From a virus: a stretch of 24,656 bases of DNA. The notes beneath the pieces were generated by a model that made no database searches, was not told where the DNA came from, and worked only from the letters and a program-made list of their open reading frames with translations. The stretch covers positions 1 to 24,656 of IMG/VR virus record IMGVR_UViG_3300007539_000205; one strand, 5' to 3'. Below, piece by piece: positions 1-23,322 of the stretch (the stretch's first letter is position 1; each line of letters begins with the position of its first letter). The position numbers were made by a program, and so were the translations under genes.

Positions 1-3000
1 TGAAGTTCCAGAAGTTCCTGATGATCCAGATGTTCCTACAGAGCCTGAAGTTCCTGCCGTACCAGATGATCCTGAAGTTCCTGATGATCCTGAAGTTCCT
101 GAAGTTCCTGATGATCCTGATGATCCTGAAGTTCCAGATGTTCCTACAGAGCCTGAAGTTCCTGCCGTACCAGATGATCCTGAAGTTCCAGAAGTTCCAG
201 AAGATCCTGAAGATCCTGAAGTTCCAGAAGATCCTGAAGTTCCTGAAGTTCCAGAAGATCCTGAAGTTCCTGAAGTTCCGACAGAACCTGAAGTTCCTGC
301 TGTACCAGAAGTTCCTGAAGTTCCTGAAGTTCCTGAAGATCCTGAAGTTCCAGATGTGCCAGATGTTCCGCTTGAACCAGAAGAACCTTTCTCTCCAGTG
401 AGTCCTATTTCACCTTGCGGTCCTGTCGCCCCATTTAAATTAACGATCCATGGTGATAAATTAGATCCAGTTCCTGTATAAGAATTTACGGAGAATGATA
501 ATAAACCACTATTTTGATTGTATGAATTAACTGTTCCAATTATTTTTGTATTTACATCATACGCAAGTAATATTTCTTGTGAAAGTGTATAAGATAATCC
601 AGTTCCAATTGTGATATTAGTGGGTGAAGATGGGGGTAATGATATTGTATCATTTGATATAGTACTGTAAACATCACCACTAAAACCTGAACTTCCTGAT
701 GAACCTGAAGTTCCAGCACTACCAGCAGAACCCGCACTACCTGCTGATCCAGCACTACCGGCACTACCAGCAGATCCTGCACTACCTGCTGATCCAGCAC
801 TACCAGCAGATCCTGCACTACCAGAACTTCCGGATGTGCCTGAAGATCCTGCACTACCAGCAGATCCGGCACTCGCATCACGTCCAGAAGAACCTGATGA
901 TCCAGCACTACCTGCTGATCCGGCACTACCTGCACTACCTGCTGATCCGGCACTACCGGCAGACCCTGCACTACCTGCTGATCCTGCACTACCTGCACTA
1001 CCTGCACTACCTGCTGATCCGGCACTACCGGCAGACCCTGCACTACCGGCAGACCCTGCACTACCTGCTGATCCAGCACTACCGGCAGACCCTGCACTAC
1101 CTGCTGATCCTGCACTACCTGCACTACCACTGCTACCTGCTGATCCTGAAGATGAATCTCCGAATGTTAAGGCAACATATCCTGTTGTGGGTTTAGGAAA
1201 AGTAATTTGAACTGTATTATTATCGATATAAGAAACTTTATCAGTTAAAATTACATTAAAATCTAAATCTGTGATGGCAAAACTTAAAGGTCTAGTGCCT
1301 AGATAGTGATTAACTATCCAAGTTGTGGATGCTATATCTTGTCGATGAATAAATGCACCACCATCACGACCAGAAGATCCAGATGTTCCTGTAGAGCCAG
1401 AAGAACCTGCAGAACCAGAACTACCTGCACTACCTGCTGATCCTGAAGAACTGTCCCCAAAAGTTACAGTTGCATAACCAGTTTGATTAACCCCCACTGG
1501 CCATATGATCTCAATAGAATTTCTTGTTGTAAATCTTACAGTTTGCGGAAATATTTGTACATAATCAGAATCAGTGAATATAACATTTACAGGTCTACTG
1601 GTATTTAAATTATGATTTATGACCCAATATCTACTAGGAGTTGTTTGACTGTGTACGTATGTACCACCATCTACACCAGATGTACCACTACTACCTGCTG
1701 ATCCTGCACTACCAGCACTTCCCGCACTACCTGCTGATCCTGCACTACCTGCTGATCCTGCACTACCTGCTGATCCGGCACTGCCAGCACTTCCTGCACT
1801 ACCTGCTGATCCAGCACTACCAGCACTTCCTGCACTACCTGCTGATCCGGCACTACCAGCACTACCAGCAGACCCTGCTGATCCGGCACTACCTGCTGAT
1901 CCGGCACTACCAGAACTTCCAGATGAACCAGAAGATCCAGCACTTCCAGCACTGCCTGATGAACCTGCTGATCCAGCACTGCCTGATGAACCTGCTGATC
2001 CCGATGTGCCTGAAGAAATTCTTTCAATTATTATTTCATTGGAATTTCCAGGAGAAACTTTATTATAATAATAAATTATAGGATTCGATGAAAAAGGAAC
2101 TTGATATGCGATATAAGCACCAGGTGTTCCTGGAGTACCAATTCTTTCGATACCATATGTAACATCTATATCATCTTGTCCAATAGATCCTGGATTATGA
2201 ATACCCTCAAAATAATTAGATAAAGATAATTCATAATTTAAATTTGAAGGATCATCCAGTTCAAATTTATATTTAAAACCTTTATACAGTAATAATGAAT
2301 CTAAAGGAACTTCATCAAATGTGAAAACATTCTCACCACCTTCATCTAAATTAACTGTTACTTTATAGACATATGCGTATGGTGCTTCTCCTGAAGTTCC
2401 TGCCGAACCAGAAGTACCAGCACTAGCATCTCTTCCAGAAGTTCCATCTTTACCTGATGATCCAGAAGTTCCTGTAGAACCTGAAGTTCCTGTAGAACCT
2501 GAAGTTCCAGATGTGCCTGACGATCCTGAAGATCCTGCACTTGCATCTCGACCAGATGAACCAGAAGATCCTGCACTTCCTGAACTTCCAGAACTACCTG
2601 CACTGCCAGAACTACCTGCACTACCAGAACTACCTGCACTACCAGAACTACCTGCACTGCCACTGCTACCTGATGAACCTGAACTTCCCGAACTTCCAGA
2701 AGATCCAGAACTTCCGGAACTGCCTGCACTGCCACTGCTACCTGATGAACCTGATGACCCTGGAATACCCTGAGCGCCTCTTAGATTCACATACCAGAAC
2801 GAAAATGTATTTTCTAATATAAAATTGCTACCATCCTCAATCAGAAGATCATGAATACCTTCAGCCTCTTCAAAAAGAAATTTGTCACCATTTTCTAAAA
2901 CTAATTTATCAAAATTTCCTACATACATTCCACTAGAAAAATCATATTCTTTTTCTTCTATTATAAGTTTTTCTGATCCGTTTTCTAGTAGTAATTGTTC

Positions 3001-6000
3001 ATCATTTTCTAGTGATAGTGTTTTTATTAAATTTTCAGTCTCAAGTTTACTATTGTCTTGTTCATTTAACAAATATCCATCATTTTCTAAAGCTATTTGA
3101 TGAATTTCATCTCTTCTATCATTTAATTGAAGATGATACGATGACATCTCCGCTTCTTCAGGATCTATTACTAATACACCTGTTTTATCATTATAACTGA
3201 CAACTACACCTTGAAAATAAGTTCTATAATCATTTCCGTATGAAATTAATACTTCTTGTCGTGGAGCATATTGTCTATCAATATCTTCAAGTATAAAAGT
3301 TTTAAAGCCAACAACATCTACAACATTTGTTGTATAAGAAATTGTACTATATCGATCACCGTCAAATCCTGAGGATCCAGAAGATCCTGCACTTCCAGCA
3401 CTACCTGCTGATCCAGCACTTCCAGCACTACCTGCTGATCCAGCACTTCCAGAGGATCCAGAACTTCCAGAGGATCCTGATGTGCCAGCAGAACCTGAAC
3501 TACCAGAAGATCCAGCACTGCCAGCAGAACCTGAACTTCCAGAGGATCCTGATGTACCGGCGGAACCTGAACTTCCAGAGGATCCTGATGTACCGGCGGA
3601 ACCCGCACTTGCATCTCGACCAGATGATCCTGAAGTTCCTGAACTTCCTGAACTACCAGAAGTTCCTGAAGAACCAGCAGAACCCGAACTACCAGAAGAT
3701 CCTGCGGTACCTGCAGATCCAGAAGAACCAGCACTTGCATCTCGACCAGAAGATCCTGAAGTTCCTGCAGATCCTGCTGTTCCTGCAGTTCCAGATGTAC
3801 CAGAAGATCCTGATGATCCATCATCTCCTTTTTCACCTTTATCACCAGTTCTTGCAAAAGTTAATACACAAATATCTTCATCGTTAAAAGGAATTGTTGA
3901 AGATTCTTCTAATATTTGAATACTTAATTCATAGTAAGATTCTTGAGGATGTTCTATTAAATTTTGAGTTATTACAAATAATAAAAAATCTTCTTCTTGT
4001 CCTTTTTTAGAAATCTTTAAATGACCTTTTACGGTGCTAGTTGAATCATCTATTGTTCTAAGAAAATTTTGTAAATCTGTATAATTATTATCAAAAAATT
4101 TAATGTATATTTTATCTGATAAGTTTTGAGTTCCATTATTTAATCGAAATAAACCATAAGGAAATGATGTATTGAATGGACTTTGTACGTTCTCGTATTC
4201 AAATTCAAAGCCTGCGCCACCAAAATTTCCATCAACCCCAGAAGTACCAGCAGAACCAGATGTGCCAGAAGTACCAGATGAACCAGAACTGCCTGCAGAT
4301 CCAGCAGAACCGGCAGATCCAGAACTTCCAGAACTACCTGCAGAACCAGCAGATCCAGAACTTCCAGAACTACCTGCAGATCCAGCAGAACCAGCAGATC
4401 CAGAACTTCCAGAACTACCTGCAGATCCAGAACTTCCAGAACTACCTGCAGATCCAGAACTTCCAGAACTACCTGCAGATCCAGAACTTCCAGAACTACC
4501 TGCAGATCCAGCAGAACCAGCAGATCCAGAACTTCCAGAACTACCTGCAGATCCAGAACTTCCAGATGATCCAGCACTACCTGCACTTCCTGCACTTCCA
4601 GAACTACCTGCAGATCCAGAACTTCCAGATGATCCAGCACTACCAGAACTACCAGAAGTTCCAGCACTACCAGAACTACCAGAAGTTCCAGCACTACCAG
4701 ATGTTCCAGACGAACCTGCGCTACCAGAACTTGCATATGTTAATCCAGACGATCCAGAAGTTCCAGCACTTCCTGAACTACCAGATGAACCAGCACTACC
4801 TGCACTTCCTGCACTTCCAGCGCTACCGGATGATCCAGAAGTTCCCGATGATCCAGAAGTTCCCGATGATCCAGAAGTTCCAGCACTTCCTGAACTACCA
4901 GATGAACCAGAACTTGCATATGTTAGTCCAGACGATCCAGAAGTTCCAGCACTTCCTGAACTACCAGATGAACCAGAACTACCTGCAGAACCTGATGATC
5001 CGGCACTTCCAGATGATCCAGCACTACCTGCACTACCTGCACTACCTGCTGATCCGGCACTACCTGCACTACCTGCTGAGCCTGAAGATCCTGCACTACC
5101 TGCTGATCCGGCACTACCTGCACTACCTGCTGAACCTGAAGATCCTGCACTACCTGCTGATCCGGCACTACCTGCACTACCTGAACTTCCAGATGATCCT
5201 GCACTACCTGAACTTCCAGATGATCCTGCACTACCTGAACTTCCAGATGATCCAGCACTACCTGCACTACCTACAGATCCTGAAGTTCCTGATGTACCAG
5301 ATGATCCTGATGATCCTGATGATCCTGCACTTGCATCTCGACCAGATGAACCAGAAGATCCTGCTGTACCGGATGAACCAGAAGTACCAGATGTTCCTGC
5401 ATCACCCGTTCTAGCAAATGTAACCACACAGCTATCGCCATCATTAAATGGAATTTCATTAGAAGAAGTAACATAATTGATTGATACTATATCAAAATTA
5501 TTACCAGCACCACCATCGACAGAATCACTAATGGTAAATAGCATGTATGCAGAATTATCACCTTTTAGAGAAATTCTAACATGACCCTTAATCGTGCTTG
5601 TCGATCCAGCTATAGTGTGTAGAAATGATTCTATATCACTAGAATTATTATCCAAGTGATTTATAATCAATTCAGTTATAGATGCAGATGATGTGCTATT
5701 GAATCTAAAAATTCCAGTTGAAGGATCACCGATGATAGAATCATCATAATCATATTCAAAAGAAGCGCCTCCAAAATTTCCATCTACTCCTGAGGTTCCT
5801 GATGATCCTGAAGTTCCTGAAGTTCCTGCTGATCCTGAAGTTCCTGCTGATCCTGATGATCCTGAAGTTAATGGTCTTATCTGATCTAATATATTTGATC
5901 TAATAATAACTGAAGAATTGTTTTGACCATTTTCTAAATAAAAACCATCATCAGAATTTACGGATATGTGTTCTAAATTTGAGATTGTATTTCCAGAAAC

Positions 6001-6960
6001 CTGCGTTTCAGAAATCTCTATAGGTTTCGAGGCAGGAGAAAACTCTAAAGTATTATTGGACGTAACCCTTAAAACATCTCCTTCAGAGCCCAGAAAACTT
6101 TCATCGACTTCTTTTAACTCAAGAACTGAAAATATTCTGTCACCATTACTATCTCTAATAGTAAAATCATTACCAGAGGTGCTGTGAAAACCTAATACAG
6201 CATTTTGTGTACCTTCACCAATTTTTAAAGATTGAGTCTGTCCGATAATCAATGATTGATTGACGACTAAATTATTATCATCATTTATTGACAATAAATC
6301 AGGATCAAAAGATATAATTATGGAAGAATTATTCTGTGCAGCAAAAAGACCACTACCTGTTTTTATTGATTTAAATTTTAAGGTAGTTTTTGTTGGAGTA
6401 TATTCTACATTTGAATATAGTTGTACTGTGTTAGATGTGACTTCTAAGTTTTTACCTATTGATACAATATCACTACCGCCGCCTCCTCCATAAGTATCTC
6501 CCCAACCAGTCGATACTTTTTGCGCAGTAGATGCTGCTTGTGAACCAATATTTTTTACAACAGTTTTTAATTTTTCTAACTCTTGCTTTAATGGTTCTAC
6601 TTGTGCGTCATCGCCTTTTGGACCTACATCACCCTGAGGACCTTGTGGTCCAATTTCTCCCTGAGGTCCTTGTGGCCCTTGAAGTCCTTGTGGCCCTATT
6701 TTACCTGGATCACCTTTCTCACCTTTTTCTCCTCTTTCACCAGGAGAACCATCTAAACCTTTTTCACCCTTTTCACCTCTAGGACCTTGCTCACCTGCTA
6801 TTTCAAGAACTTTTATTTTCTCACCAGTTTCAGGATCAAAAATTTCTTTTATATCTTTTATTAGCTCTTGCTTAGCTCTTTTAAATTCTTTTTGAGTGTA
6901 TGCTAGAGATGCAGCTAAAACTTCATTTAGTTTTAATTGCTTATTATTATCATTTGACAT
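1..6960 (-). CDS. Giant mosaic collagen-like virion fibre protein (C-terminus beyond window)
   Basis: I read this frame triplet by triplet from the ATG at 6958-6960 to position 1 and found no stop, so at least 2,320 residues lie in the window and the end is off the left edge. About half (roughly 1,200 residues) is Gly-X-Y repeat in nine blocks separated by non-collagen domains. In order: a charged helical N-terminus (1-55), a canonical collagen block (56-118), a probable coiled coil (121-140), a beta-rich region (about 160-366), then alternating blocks and domains here called A1, A2, B, C, D1, D2 and E. Outside the first block, X and Y are almost only Ser, Ala and Thr, with hardly any Pro. 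The start lies four bases after the portal stop, with only a weak ribosome site, so the gene is probably cotranscribed with the portal gene. Role inferred: trimeric fibre or whisker involved in host contact. No signal peptide is seen. The multi-domain architecture matches collagen-like fibres of marine T4-like phages, but I cannot name an exact homologue. Confidence 0.9.
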   Translation of the reverse strand, partial: MSNDNNKQLKLNEVLAASLAYTQKEFKRAKQELIKDIKEIFDPETGEKIKVLEIAGEQGPRGEKGEKGLDGSPGERGEKGEKGDPGKIGPQGLQGPQGPQGEIGPQGPQGDVGPKGDDAQVEPLKQELEKLKTVVKNIGSQAASTAQKVSTGWGDTYGGGGGSDIVSIGKNLEVTSNTVQLYSNVEYTPTKTTLKFKSIKTGSGLFAAQNNSSIIISFDPDLLSINDDNNLVVNQSLIIGQTQSLKIGEGTQNAVLGFHSTSGNDFTIRDSNGDRIFSVLELKEVDESFLGSEGDVLRVTSNNTLEFSPASKPIEISETQVSGNTISNLEHISVNSDDGFYLENGQNNSSVIIRSNILDQIRPLTSGSSGSAGTSGSAGTSGTSGSSGTSGVDGNFGGASFEYDYDDSIIGDPSTGIFRFNSTSSASITELIINHLDNNSSDIESFLHTIAGSTSTIKGHVRISLKGDNSAYMLFTISDSVDGGAGNNFDIVSINYVTSSNEIPFNDGDSCVVTFARTGDAGTSGTSGSSGTAGSSGSSGRDASAGSSGSSGSSGTSGTSGSVGSAGSAGSSGSSGSAGSSGSSGSAGSSGSSGSAGSAGSAGSAGSSGSAGSAGSAGSAGSAGSSGSAGSAGSAGSAGSAGSAGSAGSSGSAGSSGSAGSSGSSGSSGSAGTSGSSGLTYASSGSSGSSGSAGTSGSSGTSGSSGTSGSSGSAGSAGSAGSAGSSGSSGSAGTSGSSGLTYASSGSAGSSGTSGSAGTSGSSGSAGTSGSSGSAGSSGSSGSAGSSGSAGSAGSAGSSGSSGSAGSSGSSGSAGSAGSAGSSGSSGSAGSSGSSGSAGSSGSSGSAGSSGSSGSAGSAGSAGSSGSSGSAGSAGSSGSSGSAGSAGSAGSSGSSGTSGTSGSAGTSGVDGNFGGAGFEFEYENVQSPFNTSFPYGLFRLNNGTQNLSDKIYIKFFDNNYTDLQNFLRTIDDSTSTVKGHLKISKKGQEEDFLLFVITQNLIEHPQESYYELSIQILEESSTIPFNDEDICVLTFARTGDKGEKGDDGSSGSSGTSGTAGTAGSAGTSGSSGRDASAGSSGSAGTAGSSGSSGSAGSSGTSGSSGSSGTSGSSGRDASAGSAGTSGSSGSSGSAGTSGSSGSSGSAGSAGSSGSSGSAGTSGSSGSSGSSGSAGSAGSAGSAGSAGSAGSAGSSGSSGFDGDRYSTISYTTNVVDVVGFKTFILEDIDRQYAPRQEVLISYGNDYRTYFQGVVVSYNDKTGVLVIDPEEAEMSSYHLQLNDRRDEIHQIALENDGYLLNEQDNSKLETENLIKTLSLENDEQLLLENGSEKLIIEEKEYDFSSGMYVGNFDKLVLENGDKFLFEEAEGIHDLLIEDGSNFILENTFSFWYVNLRGAQGIPGSSGSSGSSGSAGSSGSSGSSGSSGSSGSSGSSGSAGSSGSAGSSGSAGSSGSAGSSGSSGSAGSSGSSGRDASAGSSGSSGTSGTSGSTGTSGSTGTSGSSGKDGTSGRDASAGTSGSAGTSGEAPYAYVYKVTVNLDEGGENVFTFDEVPLDSLLLYKGFKYKFELDDPSNLNYELSLSNYFEGIHNPGSIGQDDIDVTYGIERIGTPGTPGAYIAYQVPFSSNPIIYYYNKVSPGNSNEIIIERISSGTSGSAGSSGSAGSAGSSGSAGSAGSSGSSGSSGSAGSAGSAGSAGSAGSAGSAGSAGSAGSAGSAGSAGSAGSAGSAGSAGSAGSAGSAGSAGSAGSAGSAGSAGSSGTSGVDGGTYVHSQTTPSRYWVINHNLNTSRPVNVIFTDSDYVQIFPQTVRFTTRNSIEIIWPVGVNQTGYATVTFGDSSSGSAGSAGSSGSAGSSGSTGTSGSSGRDGGAFIHRQDIASTTWIVNHYLGTRPLSFAITDLDFNVILTDKVSYIDNNTVQITFPKPTTGYVALTFGDSSSGSAGSSGSAGSAGSAGSAGSAGSAGSAGSAGSAGSAGSAGSAGSAGSAGSAGSAGSAGSAGSAGSAGSAGSAGSAGSAGSAGSSGSSGRDASAGSAGSAGSSGTSGSSGSAGSAGSAGSAGSAGSAGSAGSAGSAGSAGSAGSAGTSGSSGSSGFSGDVYSTISNDTISLPPSSPTNITIGTGLSYTLSQEILLAYDVNTKIIGTVNSYNQNSGLLSFSVNSYTGTGSNLSPWIVNLNGATGPQGEIGLTGEKGSSGSSGTSGTSGTSGSSGTSGTSGTSGTAGTSGSVGTSGTSGSSGTSGTSGSSGTSGSSGSSGTSGTSGSSGTAGTSGSVGTSGTSGSSGSSGTSGTSGSSGTSGSSGTAGTSGSVGTSGSSGTSGTS
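433..675 (-). other. Fibre domain E (residues 2096-2176)
   Basis: An 81-residue domain with TNITIGTGLSYTL, then a VNSYNQNSG-x-L strand pair, ending in W-I-V-N-L-N-GATG, which leads straight into a more classical collagen start (GPQGEIGLTGEKG) and then back to GSS/GTS repeats. This module (set of beta strands, 'G-x-V-x-SYN-x-x-(S/T)G-x-L', W-x-x-N-L, collagen) recurs in phage collagen fibres. Confidence 0.6.
1147..1368 (-). repeat. Fibre domain D, copy 2 (residues 1865-1938)
   Basis: The second paralogue of domain D, about 74 residues, with DGGAFIHRQ, WIVNHYLGTRP, TDLD and TGYVALTFGDSSSG in the same order as copy 1. Conservation is strongest at the ends and around the NH-x-L core, and the collagen linker between copies is only about 25 residues, which points to duplication of a domain plus linker unit. 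Confidence 0.75.
1444..1674 (-). repeat. Fibre domain D, copy 1 (residues 1763-1839)
   Basis: A domain of about 77 residues beginning DGGTYVHSQ and ending TGYATVTFGDSSS. Its W-(V/I)-(I/V)-NH-x-L core followed by a TD-x-D motif is shared with the copy at 1147-1368. The W-x-I-x-HNL pattern is widespread in phage tail-fibre modules. A short collagen segment separates the two copies. Confidence 0.75.
2011..2388 (-). other. Fibre domain C (residues 1525-1650)
   Basis: A non-collagen domain of about 125 residues with alternating hydrophobic pattern and tyrosine-rich ends (KYKFELDDPS in the middle, IIYYYNKVSPGN near the end). The layout recalls a common marine-phage fibre module ending in a YYYC-x-x-H-x-GMGG type motif. 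The Cys/His residues expected for that motif are absent here, so the resemblance is tentative. Confidence 0.5.
2779..3366 (-). other. Fibre domain B with Leu/Glu-Asn-Gly repeats (residues 1199-1394)
   Basis: A non-collagen region of about 195 residues. Its second half is a chain of short related strands of the form L-x-LEN-(D/G), for example LLLENG, LVLENG, LSLEND, IALENDG and LLIEDG, at spacings of roughly 12 to 20 residues. This is consistent with a repeated beta-strand/turn stack. Similar LLLEDG/LENG repeats occur in virion proteins of marine T4-like phages in my experience; function unknown. Confidence 0.65.
3841..4239 (-). repeat. Fibre domain A, copy 2 (residues 908-1040)
   Basis: The second paralogue of domain A, about 133 residues, with the same entry (VDGNFGGAGFEF) and exit (CVLTFARTGD) motifs as the copy at 5401-5790. 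Much of the interior has diverged while the motif spacing is kept, so the duplication is old compared with the near-identical DNA repeats that lie between the two copies. Confidence 0.8.
4394..4501. repeat. Perfect 27-bp tandem array, four copies
   Basis: Four consecutive identical 27-bp units begin at 4394, 4421, 4448 and 4475. Each encodes nine residues (three Gly-X-Y triplets) on the minus strand, so gain or loss of a unit keeps the frame. Variants of the same unit with a nine-base insertion flank the array at about 4318-4393 and 4502-4530. Identity at DNA level indicates recent expansion by slippage or recombination. Confidence 0.9.
5045..5182. repeat. 54-bp tandem array, about 2.5 copies
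   Basis: Units of 54 bp (18 codons, six Gly-X-Y triplets) begin at 5045, 5099 and 5153, the last incomplete. The first two copies differ at one base that I could see (g versus a near 5080/5134). The unit length is again a multiple of nine bases, which preserves both the reading frame and the collagen register. Confidence 0.85.
5180..5260. repeat. 27-bp tandem array, three copies
   Basis: Three units of 27 bp begin at 5180, 5207 and 5234. The third differs by one base (cct to cca). They encode Gly-Ser/Ala triplets on the minus strand. The sequence differs from the 27-bp array at 4394-4501, so this is an independent expansion. Confidence 0.85.
5401..5790 (-). repeat. Fibre domain A, copy 1 (residues 391-520)
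   Basis: A non-collagen domain of about 130 residues, bounded by GVDGNFGGA at its start and TFARTGD at its end. It is clearly paralogous to the copy at 3841-4239: both share DGNFGGA, a KGH-x-x-IS-x-KG core preceded by STST, and the IPFND-x-D-x-CV-x-TFARTGD end. The pattern is beta-rich. Function unknown; probably a globular knob between collagen stalks. Confidence 0.8.
6607..6795 (-). repeat. Canonical collagen block (residues 56-118)
   Basis: This is the only stretch of the fibre with ordinary collagen chemistry: Gly-X-Y triplets with Pro, Glu-Lys and Gln (GEKGEKG, GERGEKG, GPQGPQG types). It is flanked by a charged helical N-terminus and by a short heptad-like segment (residues 121-140, LKQELEKLK), which could set the trimer register. 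The contrast with the later Ser/Ala/Thr blocks suggests a separate origin. Confidence 0.85.
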
Positions 6961-6964
6961 TTAA

Positions 6965-8635
6965 TTAATCGTCTAACTTTATAGTAGATAAAATATCATT
7001 TATAGTGTTTTTCAGTTTTTCGTCATTTTTACTAGATTCAAATTTGCTTTCTATAATTTTCTCAATGAGATTTTCATTCAAAACATTTTCAGATTCTTGT
7101 TCGTAAGAATTATTCATTTGCATATCATCTTCTCCAGAAAATCTTGGATCTTCCAGTTCTTTCGCAATTTGTTCATCATTTGTTTTGATGTCATCATCAC
7201 TCATCAATAAAATATTTTTTCTCACATACTCATTAGAATAATATTTTCCAGTGTATTCTGATAAATCTCTTAATAAGTTAAGTCTGTCTTGTAATAATTC
7301 ATTTCTTTTCATTTCTGTGAAATGACTATCACTTTCATAATGATAATAGAGTTGATTTTTAATTTCTTTAAAATCATCTCTACTCATAATACCTTTAAGA
7401 CTTAATTGTCTCTCTAATAATTCATCAAATAAAATTGAAAATTTATTTTGTAATCTATTAATAAATCTGGTAAATTTAACTTCGTCTCTGGAAATTTCCG
7501 TTGCTCTACCAATGGTATAAGATGCTTCTGATTCTAATCTAGAGAGTGGAACACCTAATGATTTATAAAGTTTCTTTTGAAAGTATATAACATCTTCTAT
7601 ATCACCTAGATTTTGACCTCCTGGCAATGTTGTTACCTCGGTACCTCTACCCCCCTCCATTCTAGGCATCCAGTAATCTTCTAACATTGACATATGTTTT
7701 CTATCATCACGTATTTCACCAGTATTCGCATCATAAACAAGTTTATTCTTATATCTTGTCATCAAATCACGCATATATTGTTCTGCTCGTACTTTAGGTA
7801 AATTTCCAACATCTACATAAAAAATTCTTCTTTCGGGTGCCCTTGATATCCTATAAATGACTAAAGAATCTTCAATCATTCTGAGCATATTGAGAGGTTT
7901 TATAGCTTTATGTAAGTATGATAATACTAATGATTTTGTGGAATTTAATAATCCAGAATGACAATAAACAATAGAATCTAAAGAAATTTTTAAACCAGAT
8001 GCTGCATTTGTAAATGCAGTTCCTATTGTCTGTCCTTGCGATTGATATATACCTTTTTCATTATAGACATAATATTCTTGTATTTGTTTTTGAGTGTCAC
8101 CATTTGGAAGTTTTAGAGATTTATTTTCTCTGATTTTTTTTATCTTGCGAGGATCTAATAATCTTAATTCGTGAATACCTTTTTTAGTATTTTTTTCATC
8201 AATAACAACATGATAATAAATTCTACCATCAACATACCATCTTCTGAATAAATCATAACCTAAATTTTGAAAATCTAATAATTTAGATATCTCTTTGAAT
8301 TCTGCTCTTATTTTATTTTTTATATTTTCGGATAGGTTTAGATTATCTAATTTTATATCCACTATAGGATTGTCTTTTATTGATATAATCGCTTCATTAA
8401 CAATATCGTCTATAGCATTTTCGACTTCTGCCTGTAAAGACATATCTCTATAACGATTTATTAACTCTGATTCGCTCTTTATGGCACCTTCAGTATCAAT
8501 ATACGTTCCATAGGCACCTCCAGATGCTACGGTAACCGCACCGTCTTCATGTTCAACTTGAGCAAAACTTTGTATCTTTTCATTTTTCTTGGATTCTTTT
8601 TTTCCGATAGTAAATCCAAATATATCAATAGCCAT
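6965..8635 (-). CDS. gp20: Portal vertex protein, T4 gp20 family
   Basis: A 556-residue protein of the T4 gp20 family (T4 gp20 is 524 residues). Twelve copies form the ring at the unique head vertex through which DNA is packaged and to which the neck attaches. Family features visible include the N-terminal EGAIKSESELINRYRDMS, the VENAIDDIVNEAI helix, RRWYVDGRIYYH, the LLDPRKIKKIRE stretch, and RISRAPERRIFYVDVGNLP followed by the long LESEASYTIGRATEISRDE region. The C-terminus is acidic and probably disordered. The ATG is preceded five bases earlier by AGGA, directly after the intergenic hairpin. The gene sits between gp19 and the collagen fibre gene; in T4, prohead core genes follow gene 20. 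Confidence 0.97.
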   Translation of the reverse strand: MAIDIFGFTIGKKESKKNEKIQSFAQVEHEDGAVTVASGGAYGTYIDTEGAIKSESELINRYRDMSLQAEVENAIDDIVNEAIISIKDNPIVDIKLDNLNLSENIKNKIRAEFKEISKLLDFQNLGYDLFRRWYVDGRIYYHVVIDEKNTKKGIHELRLLDPRKIKKIRENKSLKLPNGDTQKQIQEYYVYNEKGIYQSQGQTIGTAFTNAASGLKISLDSIVYCHSGLLNSTKSLVLSYLHKAIKPLNMLRMIEDSLVIYRISRAPERRIFYVDVGNLPKVRAEQYMRDLMTRYKNKLVYDANTGEIRDDRKHMSMLEDYWMPRMEGGRGTEVTTLPGGQNLGDIEDVIYFQKKLYKSLGVPLSRLESEASYTIGRATEISRDEVKFTRFINRLQNKFSILFDELLERQLSLKGIMSRDDFKEIKNQLYYHYESDSHFTEMKRNELLQDRLNLLRDLSEYTGKYYSNEYVRKNILLMSDDDIKTNDEQIAKELEDPRFSGEDDMQMNNSYEQESENVLNENLIEKIIESKFESSKNDEKLKNTINDILSTIKLDD

Positions 8636-11770: not shown

Positions 11771-15329
<3,559 letters not shown>

Positions 15330-17032: not shown

Positions 17033-17386
17033 ATGGCAACATCAATCAAAACTCAAGGACAAAATTTAACTCTTTATCAAGGCTCAACATTTGAAAAAAC
17101 ATTTGTAACTAAAAATGCAAATAGTCAAAATGTGAGCATCAGTACAGGTTCTTGTTTTTCTCAGATGAGAAAAAATTATACCACAACCAACACATCTCTA
17201 ATATTAACATTCACAACTTCCATCTCAGGAAGTAATGTGACAATATCCGCTTCAGCAACTGATACGGCAAATATACCCTCAGGTCTTTATGTATATGATG
17301 TAGAATATTTGCAATCTGACGGTATCACGAAAGAAAGAATTGTTGATGGTATGATAACTGTTATACCAGAAGCAACTAAAATTTAG
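17033..17386 (+). CDS. Small beta-rich phage protein, possibly Ig-like (BppU-N-like), plus strand
   Basis: A 117-residue protein with the order seen in a recurrent small phage family: an N-terminal LYQGSTFEKTF strand, a variable middle with SQMRKNYTTTN, then SGSNVTISASATDTANIPSG, LYVYDVEYLQSDG and a final strand IVDGMITVIPEATK. The alternating pattern predicts an Ig-like beta sandwich, comparable to BppU N-terminal domains of baseplates; this family link is from pattern memory. It has its own late promoter and its stop TAG overlaps the convergent gp14 stop (shared bases 17383-17386). Position among neck genes suggests a virion accessory, but expression from the opposite strand shows it is a separate module. 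No signal peptide. Confidence 0.85.
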   Translation: MATSIKTQGQNLTLYQGSTFEKTFVTKNANSQNVSISTGSCFSQMRKNYTTTNTSLILTFTTSISGSNVTISASATDTANIPSGLYVYDVEYLQSDGITKERIVDGMITVIPEATKI

Positions 17387-19275: not shown

Positions 19276-22200
19276 TTAAATGGTTGGAATGTTTGCGGTA
19301 TCAATAGTTAACTCAAGACCATTTAATAATGATCCTCCAGAATCATAAACTGGTAATCTACAATCTACACCATCACACTCAATTCGCCCTAATACTTTTA
19401 AATCCTCATTAATTTCAGTATCTCCTGTATTTAATACACCATTTATTAAAACATCAGTTTCAACTTCTAATGCCGCTAATTGTGCAACAGATGAAATTGA
19501 AAGAGTTTGAGAATCAAGATCAGTTACACCACTTATTGCACCAGTCATATTAATATCTATAACATTCACCGTATCTGCCGTTAATGCATAACCTGTTAAA
19601 TCAATATCACCTACAATTGTTATTTCTCCATCTATACTAACAGTTCCGACCAATTCAATAGTTGCAGGATCTGCAGAAGTTCCTATGAAGGTATCTGCCA
19701 GTGTTGTTGTTGTTGAAACTTGTAAAACTTCAGCGTTGACCAACGGAGTATTTAAACTATCTGCTGAAATTCCCTCATATATAACGTCTCCAGCAGTAAC
19801 AGAACCCTTAATGAAAACATCTTCACCAAAAAAAGAATTTGCAGAGACCCACAATGATTTAGTTATGTTGGTATTTCCTGTTATATAAACATTTCCTGAT
19901 CTATTTTGGGCAGGATCAGGACCGGTTATTTTAAGAGTATTATTACCAAGAATATTAGTTTGACTACCTGTTGTGATTATAAAAGCATTACTTTCAATTT
20001 CCTGATTAGTTCCTATTTTTCCATTCGCACTCAAAAATCCTCTCAAATGCAAATCATCACTACCCACAATATCACCGTCCTGTATAGTTAAAGTGCCTTT
20101 TTTGATTACCACATTATTACCCACAGTCAAATCACCTGCAAAATAAGAATTTGCCTGAGCATTAGCAACTGTCAAATATCCTTCTGTGATAGTTAATAAA
20201 TTTTTCAATCTCATGTCATCACTACCTAAAATGTCTCCTTCTGAAACATTTAGGTTTCCTTTAACCGTAGCATCATATTCTACAAATATATTATTCGCAA
20301 AAATATCACCAGAAGGCATATCTAATGATCCACTTAAACTAACTTCTCCATCAACAACAAGATTTTCAATAATTTTTGTATTTCCAGTTATTGTCAATTT
20401 ATCCAAAATAACAGTATTACCATGCTGGGTTGGATCAGTAGATCTATTGATTTTGACAATGGCATCTGTTCTAGCACCAGTATCGATGCTAACCAATGAA
20501 ACGTTACCTTGATTATATAATGTTCCATCAATATCTGTGTTTGATGCAATGTCTAAATTAGTCCCGTTGAGCGTGACATTTCCTCTGGCTGTTATATTTC
20601 CTTGCGTAAATGTATTGGATGTTGTACTGCTAATATAAACATTTTCAGCATGAATAGTAGTATTACCTTTTAAATTTACCGTACCTCTAATATTGGTATT
20701 TGATGTAGTGTGTTCAACAAAAACATTATAACCTGTGTATTGAAAATTACCATTTACTATGAAATTAGAATCTTTGCTTGTAAAGGTGATCAAATTACCA
20801 TCAACAATTAAATCATTTGTAATTGTCAAATCTTCATCCATAAGTACATCTGATCTAAATGTAGATTCTCCAATCATATAACTTTGAGTGTCAACATGAA
20901 AAGTTCCATCAGGACCAATTACCGTATTACCGGTTACTGTCATTTCTCCATCGACATTTGCAGTGGCAGCTCTCAGATTTTTCTTTATGTGTGTATTACT
21001 GGCAAATTCAGCAGTGTGTTTAAAATAAACGGATCCATTTCCATTCACTTCTTCAATGAATAAAACGCTATCATCAGCAAAACTAGCATCACCATCAATC
21101 GTAATAGTTCTCTCACCTGTTATATGTCTTCCTACACTTAAATTTTTTGACACTACCACATTATTCGCAACAGTCAATATTCCTGGAAAATAAAGACTAT
21201 TGTTATATTGATTAAATTCGATAGCCCATCTTCTCGGTCTATATTGTTGTAACTCTGATCCTGGAGGAGGATCGAATAAAATTTGACCCATTCCCATATA
21301 AGAATAACCCTGTCGGTCACCTCCTGGATAAGATAAGTATAATGTAGTGTCTTGGAATTCAGTTGCATTCTCACCTATACCAATAATGGAATATCCTGAA
21401 TCAGTAGCATCAAAAACAGCAATTGTAGTATTTGCATTCTGTACAACAAGATTTGCATTAACTCTTGTTTCATAACCATTAAATATAGAATTGGCTTCTA
21501 CCCCTAATGTTCCACCAACATGCAGAGTGTACAGTGCAGTATTAGCATAGGCAAAGCCTACTGTATTAAATCCTGTCTTTACAATAACTTCTTGTTCGTT
21601 TATGTTGATACCAACATTGCCCGTGGATTCAATTTGAAATATTTTAGAAGAATCATTTTCAACTAAAACTGTATCAACTAAATCTATGGCGCTTGTTTTC
21701 ACATACAGTGTAGTACCTTGCGTACCGGTACCATTTGAAATAAAACTAACCAAATTTGAAGTATGATCTGCCGTAGATCTTAAATGTAATCCAGTACCTG
21801 AAGACAAACTATCGACTAAAATATCAATAGTATTCGTTGTAGTATTTTCAGCATCAATTGATAAAGTATAATTATCAGAATCTTGATTTATATAAATTCC
21901 TTTTCCTGATTGAGTATATAAATCCATTAACCTGACGCCAGTTGCTTGAGGATGGCTTTGCTCTATTTTAATCAAAGATCTAGTATCACCGGTTTGATTG
22001 TCATCATGTATTTGTAATAATGATCCTGTAAAACTTATCGTTGAAGGTTCATATCTTAAATTAACCATCGAACCTGATGTCAAAGAAGCGGTTGTAATGT
22101 TTAACACATTTGCAGTAGTTTGATTACTCTCAACTCTGACCGCACTATATTCTCCTCTATCAGAATTCACAAAAATACCGTGCGCTAAATCCGTGGAAGA

Positions 22201-23322
22201 TTGATGAATATGTAATTTTCCACTTATAGTTTCAAACTGACCTGCACCTGGTATTTGTACACTTCCTCCAAATTCAGAATATATTCTCATCTTATCGGCA
22301 CTGTTTGTTCCGAAAGTTAAATAATTGCTCGGATTACTATGATTAATGTATCCTTGTGCTGGTGTAGTGCTATCACCAAAGAAAAGATATGAATTTGCAG
22401 CATTATTTGCCAATAAAGTCATACCGACTGATGTGTTACCTTCTATTACAAATTCATCACCTCTTGTATCAACAGTAGTTTTTAAAGTATTGGGATTTGA
22501 AAAATCTCTTCTTATATGCAATCTACCAGAAGAAGATGTTGGTATTCTAGAAGATCCTATTCCTGCCCATTCTGGAAATTTACCTACAGCAACATTTGCA
22601 CTATCATTAGTCGCAAGCATCGAACTAGTATTTGATATAAAATAAGAACCAGTATTTACTGTAATATCAGAGCTGTGTATAACTCCGGAATGAAAATCTC
22701 CTGAATCTATCTCGGGACCTAGTAACACCGCACCTGTAAAATTATGAGTACCATCTTGAACTGTTAAAGTACCGGTGTAGGTGCTATTTATTTTTAAACT
22801 GACTCCGTGTAATGTTCCTGCAGTTCCTGTGCCACCTATCGGAACAACAGGGTAAACATTTAATTTCTGTACTTCTCCTAAATTAGTTATTGTTGCTTCA
22901 GTAAAGTCTATTTCTGATGTTCCATCGGATCTTAATGCCTGTCCATTCAATAAAATCTCACTATCTCTTATTTGAACACTTTGTATATAAGAATCTGGAT
23001 TTGAACCACTAACTACTGGTCCTCCATTAACTTTTATTTCTCTAGCAATACCCAATGAAATAACATCAGCATCTTGAAAATTTACTCTGGAACCAGAACC
23101 AGTGTATACAAGATTTACACCAGTTGCAATGTTAGATGTTATTGTATTAGAATTTACAACATTTATATACGTGGCACCTGAAATATCTGTTGTCACGATT
23201 CCATTTAAAACATCATCGTCACTAGATTCCATGATGACTTTGATGATTTTATTTGTCTCGAGCCTCCAGTCCTCAAACGTATTAATTAATTCTATATCCG
23301 TAAGTGCTTCAGATAGTGACAT
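19276..23322 (-). CDS. Giant beta-repeat fibre-like structural protein (1348 residues) in the wac/gene 12 position
   Basis: A 1348-residue virion protein. The N-terminus has TFEDWRLETNKIIKVI (15-30), a motif common at the start of marine T4-like fibre proteins and probably the attachment end. The rest is Asn/Thr/Gly-rich, with many short strands of the form G-N-x-x-(I/V)-x-x-x-L-x-V. The last 500 residues are near-repeats (NNVVIKKGTLTIQDGDIVGSD versus NLNVSEGDILGSD), suggesting a beta-helix or stacked-strand shaft. A middle section (about 240-370) holds GRLHIRRDFSNP and YLFFGDSTTPAQGYINHS, as in receptor-binding or decoration domains. The C-terminus holds two cysteines (CDGVDC, about 1316-1321) and no S74 peptidase signature. 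AGGA lies about seven bases before the ATG. T4 carries genes 12 and wac just before 13, so a whisker or short-fibre analogue is plausible but unproved. Confidence 0.85.
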   Translation of the reverse strand: MSLSEALTDIELINTFEDWRLETNKIIKVIMESSDDDVLNGIVTTDISGATYINVVNSNTITSNIATGVNLVYTGSGSRVNFQDADVISLGIAREIKVNGGPVVSGSNPDSYIQSVQIRDSEILLNGQALRSDGTSEIDFTEATITNLGEVQKLNVYPVVPIGGTGTAGTLHGVSLKINSTYTGTLTVQDGTHNFTGAVLLGPEIDSGDFHSGVIHSSDITVNTGSYFISNTSSMLATNDSANVAVGKFPEWAGIGSSRIPTSSSGRLHIRRDFSNPNTLKTTVDTRGDEFVIEGNTSVGMTLLANNAANSYLFFGDSTTPAQGYINHSNPSNYLTFGTNSADKMRIYSEFGGSVQIPGAGQFETISGKLHIHQSSTDLAHGIFVNSDRGEYSAVRVESNQTTANVLNITTASLTSGSMVNLRYEPSTISFTGSLLQIHDDNQTGDTRSLIKIEQSHPQATGVRLMDLYTQSGKGIYINQDSDNYTLSIDAENTTTNTIDILVDSLSSGTGLHLRSTADHTSNLVSFISNGTGTQGTTLYVKTSAIDLVDTVLVENDSSKIFQIESTGNVGININEQEVIVKTGFNTVGFAYANTALYTLHVGGTLGVEANSIFNGYETRVNANLVVQNANTTIAVFDATDSGYSIIGIGENATEFQDTTLYLSYPGGDRQGYSYMGMGQILFDPPPGSELQQYRPRRWAIEFNQYNNSLYFPGILTVANNVVVSKNLSVGRHITGERTITIDGDASFADDSVLFIEEVNGNGSVYFKHTAEFASNTHIKKNLRAATANVDGEMTVTGNTVIGPDGTFHVDTQSYMIGESTFRSDVLMDEDLTITNDLIVDGNLITFTSKDSNFIVNGNFQYTGYNVFVEHTTSNTNIRGTVNLKGNTTIHAENVYISSTTSNTFTQGNITARGNVTLNGTNLDIASNTDIDGTLYNQGNVSLVSIDTGARTDAIVKINRSTDPTQHGNTVILDKLTITGNTKIIENLVVDGEVSLSGSLDMPSGDIFANNIFVEYDATVKGNLNVSEGDILGSDDMRLKNLLTITEGYLTVANAQANSYFAGDLTVGNNVVIKKGTLTIQDGDIVGSDDLHLRGFLSANGKIGTNQEIESNAFIITTGSQTNILGNNTLKITGPDPAQNRSGNVYITGNTNITKSLWVSANSFFGEDVFIKGSVTAGDVIYEGISADSLNTPLVNAEVLQVSTTTTLADTFIGTSADPATIELVGTVSIDGEITIVGDIDLTGYALTADTVNVIDINMTGAISGVTDLDSQTLSISSVAQLAALEVETDVLINGVLNTGDTEINEDLKVLGRIECDGVDCRLPVYDSGGSLLNGLELTIDTANIPTI

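Follow-up and report, generated by a model that had tools for sequence, protein, structure and literature searches.

A giant collagen-mosaic fibre gene directly behind the portal gene of a T4-like virus, a candidate host-adhesion protein

The stretch of DNA analysed here, referred to as the window, comprises the whole of a 24,656-base IMG/VR record from an uncultivated marine T4-like virus. On its minus strand, the portal gene gp20 is followed by a collagen-mosaic fibre gene that begins with an ATG at 6960 and stays free of stops for 2,320 codons, as far as base 1. As gp20 ends with its stop at 6965, four bases (6961-6964) separate it from the fibre ATG. Both the length of this frame and its place immediately behind gp20 had been proposed in a preliminary description of the sequence, which named no strand, and are borne out. 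The gene is truncated by the contig end, so the 2,320 codons represent the 5′ part only and the 3′ end lies outside the window. The remaining five frames over the gene contain 58-269 stops each, with a longest open run of 438 codons. The features of the locus, in order of transcription, are as follows.

6965..8635, minus strand: gp20 portal gene, upstream neighbour of the fibre gene (PF07230, E 7e-178)
1..6960, minus strand: collagen-mosaic fibre gene, 5′ part, 2,320 codons (open frame; Pfam Collagen, E 6e-152)
6796..6960, minus strand: N-terminal helix-like putative anchor, residues 1-55, motif VLAASLAYTQKEFKRAK (HMM and profile-profile comparison)
6607..6795, minus strand: Gly-X-Y block 1, residues 56-118, of classical composition
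5863..6606, minus strand: N-terminal domain, residues 119-366, with a coiled-coil-like start, a Gly-rich linker and a beta-like part (conserved among relatives)
5773..5862, minus strand: Gly-X-Y block 2 (segmentation)
5407..5772, minus strand: module B copy 1, residues 397-518 (AF2 pLDDT 92; matches in viral collagen-repeat proteins)
4222..5406, minus strand: Gly-X-Y block 3, 395 residues, no proline (composition); length-polymorphic in contig L084
3847..4221, minus strand: module B copy 2, residues 914-1038 (module comparison)
3352..3846, minus strand: Gly-X-Y block 4 (segmentation)
2779..3351, minus strand: module C with insertion, residues 1204-1394 (module comparison)
2383..2778, minus strand: Gly-X-Y block 5 (segmentation)
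2011..2382, minus strand: module E, residues 1527-1650 (module comparison; by eye also in the L186 fibre and in cyanophage fibres)
1669..2010, minus strand: Gly-X-Y block 6 (segmentation)
1444..1668, minus strand: module D copy 1, residues 1765-1839 (module comparison)
1363..1443, minus strand: Gly-X-Y block 7 (segmentation)
1147..1362, minus strand: module D copy 2, residues 1867-1938 (module comparison)
670..1146, minus strand: Gly-X-Y block 8 (segmentation)
433..669, minus strand: module C, residues 2098-2176 (module comparison)
1..432, minus strand: Gly-X-Y block 9, incomplete at the contig end (segmentation)

Segmentation of the frame yields nine Gly-X-Y blocks, the number first described, with 1,203 residues in triplets. 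Between them lie eight globular modules, where at least seven distinct or duplicated domains had been claimed; these fall into five distinct families, namely the 248-aa N-terminal domain and module E, found once each, and modules B, C and D, found twice each. Pfam recovers Collagen (PF01391) in 20 stretches, and the long blocks have a Gly in every third position. Block 1 contains 14% proline and 32% charged residues, while blocks 2-9 contain 0-1% and 1-8%, respectively. Since eight of the nine blocks are almost free of proline, "collagen" here denotes a sequence pattern, and the label used in the preliminary description stands only in that sense. Matches of the fibre in PHROGs are mainly to tail fibre families, but they are driven by the repeats and are therefore not counted as proof. 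Module B recurs in viral collagen-repeat proteins, such as an S-CAM7 protein and the S-H34 baseplate wedge tail fibre connector. An alignment of this family (A2) extends from phage collagen-repeat proteins to the giant viruses Klosneuvirus, Indivirus and Marseillevirus LCMAC102. Structure prediction of the non-collagen parts, which had been suggested as a check, was fruitful in part: the AF2 model of module B is confident (pLDDT 92), yet it has no fold match in the PDB, and the model of the C-terminal tip of a complete relative (pLDDT 33) is unusable.

The same gene is found in independent assemblies. Two contigs from other metagenomes, L083 and L084, carry it in the same order: L083 aligns over 2,217 nt with 99.5% identity and L084 over 3,374 nt with 95.6%. 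Their length differences from the window, 3 and 33 residues, are in frame. Retrieval by portal similarity gave about 60 contigs with a portal of at least 72% identity, and all that are long enough have the fibre gene after gp20; a comparison of this kind had been proposed in the preliminary description. Most of these contigs, the window included, break inside the fibre gene, and leftward of about 3,590 the sequence is backed by similar, not identical, relatives only. Against four diverged relatives, dN/dS is 0.14-0.30 over the first ~350 codons, indicating that the N-terminal part is under purifying selection. Taken together, the in-frame agreement of independent contigs, the contigs with close portals and the purifying selection show that the gene is no assembly accident; neither an interrupting stop or frameshift nor a false join in the repeats, which the preliminary description had named as dangers, was found. 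The leftward extension that it had proposed in order to find the stop failed, as no viral contig continues the window by exact DNA match, and the stop is seen instead in a relative (L162, below). A search for T4 late promoters returned three matches, which is chance level, all on the opposite strand.

The nearest relative, L087, has a portal 87% identical to that of the window, and extending it through its record (as L162) gives a complete fibre. This is an intact frame with a stop, 4,717 aa long, with twelve blocks, 2,214 residues in triplets and a module order that matches that of the window for much of the gene. Judging from this relative, our guess is that the window fibre has a full length of 4,000 or more aa; complete fibres of more distant relatives measure 879 to 2,896 aa. 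In L162 and L140, the fibre closes with PKD domains and a region of 560 aa, 51% identical between the two, while L104 and L143 share another C-terminus and L127 has yet another. Variable C-termini combined with a conserved N-terminus are the usual sign of a receptor-binding tip. In L186 and L187, the PKD-tip unit is carried on a non-collagen shaft, followed by the same next gene as in the collagen fibres. Given this and the different ends of L104/L143 and L127, the tip is, as judged from sequence, an exchangeable adhesin end. The tip of L162 and L140 matches phiCbK gp73 (E 7e-16, ~500 aa, 24% identity for the complete relative), and further homologues with 22-28% identity and E values down to 1e-23 occur in phages of Caulobacter, Brevundimonas, Agrobacterium and Sinorhizobium, including Atu_ph07 and Phosso. 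Profile matches to PCNA in the PDB were put down to chance.

At the opposite end of the protein, neither the N-terminal 330 aa nor the first 55 aa have a significant match among phage isolates. What a search with the N-terminus did find was genes placed directly after gp20 in many diverged T4-like contigs. These genes follow a common plan: a helix of ~40-60 aa, a Gly-X-Y block, a coiled-coil-like stretch, a Gly-rich linker and a beta-like module. Profile-profile comparison finds the anchor homologous with that of two other lineages at 97% probability, and more weakly for others. An HMM of the anchor matched 75 loci, all directly after gp20, in a set partly chosen with the same query, to which the restriction to this position applies; eight further matches are the same genes fetched twice or a contig that starts inside the gene. 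When contigs were collected by portal, blind to collagen, only 2 of 71 had a post-gp20 fibre, which rules out a slot conserved in all T4-like phages. A portal tree has a side of 34 rows, 27 of which carry such a fibre, and a side of 66 rows, of which 2 do, requiring at least six changes; the isolates HTVC008M, S-H38 and Melnitz do not have one. The position behind gp20 thus recurs in many uncultivated T4-like lineages, and the preliminary description was right to call it unusual relative to isolates only. The cyanophages P-TIM68, Bellamy and S-SM2 carry a fibre between gp16 and gp17 with an LDDVD module like that of the post-gp20 fibres of other lineages. Such fibres thus occupy several sites within the head-neck operon, and where they reside in the virion cannot be read from gene position alone. 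Following the first fibre, L104, L116 and L143 have a second Gly-X-Y gene (MALFLKGE...), which encodes about 1,500-1,680 aa and differs in its N-terminus; in G003 and G004 a ~106-aa gene lies between the two.

The preliminary description had placed the fibre where T4 has its prohead-core genes. In the more distant relatives G008 and G004, however, gp21, gp22 and gp23 follow in normal order after the insert behind gp20, at a displacement from gp20 to gp21 of about 22-24 kb in G008 and about 33 kb in G004. The gap is 4-9 kb in other fibre-bearing lineages, ten of which retain a gp67-like gene after the fibre and ahead of gp21. Where sister lineages lack the fibre, gp21 lies about 0.2-4 kb after gp20, mostly under 2 kb. 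The prohead-core genes are therefore displaced, not replaced. The post-gp20 insert in relatives holds fibre genes and, in G004 and G008, radical-SAM and other enzymes, while in G003 and the window only 1.9-4.3 kb separate VrlC and gp13, as against 15.8 kb in HTVC008M. On these grounds, the simplest reading is a host-recognition cassette sited between gp20 and the prohead-core genes and headed by the fibre.

The stretch between fibre and prohead genes in G008 (L172:12348-20000, L173:1-10753), the only one searched with Pfam for enzymes, encodes three radical-SAM proteins, an Asp/Arg hydroxylase, an SDR, a chalcone-synthase-like enzyme, two fatty-acid desaturases, a 2OG-Fe(II) oxygenase, TauD and a Rieske oxygenase. 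Genes similar to this set were recognized by eye in G004 (L166-L168), and none were seen in the window or in G001. From their sequences, the enzymes look like a biosynthetic or modification cassette inside the phage structural operon. Collagen hydroxylation machinery was considered and set aside, as the blocks are almost without proline.

Several other genes of the window merit description. Before gp13, in the position of T4 wac, a second long fibre-like gene (19276-23322, minus strand) encodes a 1,348-aa protein without a Pfam match. A 497-aa protein (13836-15329, minus strand) lies between gp16 and gp17, where some cyanophages have a fibre, and is kept in relatives. On the opposite strand are a small gene between gp17 and gp18 (11771-12196, plus strand), HNH-like by eye and present in relatives, and a gene between gp14 and gp15 (17033-17386, plus strand) with 31% identity to the HTVC008M tail fibre assembly protein.

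The fibre is probably a very long host-adhesion protein of the virion, whose gene opens a host-recognition cassette located between gp20 and the prohead-core genes. Three chains would assemble into a trimer, with the conserved N-terminal helix docking on the virion and the Gly-X-Y shafts serving as flexible spacers. At 0.29 nm per residue, the shaft would reach ~0.35 µm for the part in the window and ~0.64 µm in the complete relative. Binding to the bacterial surface would fall to the mosaic modules and to the exchangeable tip at the C-terminus. It counts against this reading that eight blocks lack proline, so that the triple-helical trimer is something we infer, that the window stops short of its own tip, and that the enzyme genes are seen in the more distant G004 and G008 but neither here nor in G001. 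As to the site of attachment, the tail appears by analogy somewhat more likely than the baseplate, neck or head, but a gene next to gp20 whose anchor is confined to that place would also be in keeping with a fibre at the head or neck vertex.

The foremost alternative, which we consider unlikely, is such a filament: the N-terminal helix would sit on the capsid, the neck or the portal vertex, and the shaft would hold the particle on an appendage or the surface of the host ahead of tail engagement, as in the interaction of the phiCbK head filament with the flagellum. Besides the portal gene four bases upstream and the anchor matches confined to that place, the tip homologues point in this direction. 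The gp73 gene lies in the head module of phiCbK, three genes upstream of that for gp76, which has been proposed as the head filament (PMC3556154), and Atu_ph07 bears long thin appendages or whiskers that are mainly capsid-associated (PMC6102473). On the other hand, gp73 is absent among the detected phiCbK virion proteins and is not the proposed filament, and the Atu_ph07 tip homologue sits among tail genes. The tip is one of several exchangeable C-termini and also occurs on an ordinary non-collagen fibre, T4-like gene order does not fix virion location, and the anchor is unrelated to gp67. A relationship of gp76 itself with the fibre was rejected (best blastp E 4.4, no similarity). The link of the tip with head fibres, through isolate relatives with capsid filaments, is thus suggestive only, a hint and not proof. 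Its broader form is more doubtful still: a portal-linked family of vertex fibres in many uncultivated T4-like lineages, whose anchor helix would dock at the portal, neck or head and whose tether of up to ~0.6 µm, several virion lengths, might make first contact with swimming or sparse hosts.

Two further readings fare far worse than an adhesion fibre. A chimeric contig that joins two loci through the Gly-X-Y repeats, making the long frame unreal, would fit the difficulty of assembling repeats and the frequent breaks inside the gene, but it is very improbable given the same order in two other metagenomes, the module order shared with the complete relative and the selection on the N-terminus. 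Hardly credible is an intracellular or head-internal core or scaffold protein in place of gp67: although the fibre gene stands where gene 67 does, the anchor HMM found no gp67-like similarity in 83 ORFs that follow gp20 in sister lineages (best E 0.58), and a derivation of the anchor from gp67 was rejected as well; other fibre-bearing lineages still have gp67-like genes downstream, and the modules and PKD-tip ends are of the adhesin type.

An adhesion fibre at this locus would give T4-like phages a second place for host-recognition genes, between the portal and prohead-core genes, in lineages that have no isolate among those examined, with a short, testable anchor sequence tied to it. If the shaft is a triple helix, the fibre would exceed the virion itself in length. 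If the anchor binds the head or neck, tethering by head filaments, known from a few phages, would extend to a widespread marine group.

The host-recognition cluster of pelagi- and cyanomyophages provides the closest parallel for the cassette, as a variable island in the structural region with tail fibres and radical-SAM and other enzyme genes, and it always lies between VrlC and gp14 (PMC7029224). Traits of this cluster are present here, namely the variable C-terminus and, in relatives, downstream fibre and radical-SAM genes, but the fibre follows gp20 instead of lying between VrlC and gp13/14. phiCbK gp73 (phrog_8578) is homologous to the tip of the complete relative over its C-terminal ~500 aa; unlike the fibre, it is 647 aa long and has no Gly-X-Y blocks. 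T4 fibritin (wac) is comparable as a neck fibre whose gene stands in the company of neck and head genes. In T4, wac precedes gene 13; the fibre gene lies after gp20 and not before gp13, Pfam finds Collagen only in its product and no fibritin, and the wac position of the window is taken by another gene, that for the 1,348-aa protein.

EPclA of E. coli O157:H7 prophages, shown to be trimeric, resembles the fibre in its N-terminal attachment part, coiled coil, Gly-X-Y shaft and C-terminal binding part (PMC3368898), but has one collagen block of 111 residues with PfN/PfC domains in place of nine to twelve mostly proline-free blocks and other modules. By description, the fibre can also be likened to ORF85 of the T4-like cyanophage S-CREM2 (42559-57474), whose product of ~5,000 aa was named a long tail fibre and detected in the proteome of the virion (PMC10665884). 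That gene, at 42-57 kb, is far from its own portal gene (114.6-116.4 kb), and the paper does not mention collagen. The size claimed as unusual is thus beyond the cultured relatives examined but has a precedent. Since collagen-like fibres are common in phages and S-CREM2 encodes a tail fibre of ~5,000 aa, the kind of protein is already known; its size and place here match no cultured relative examined.
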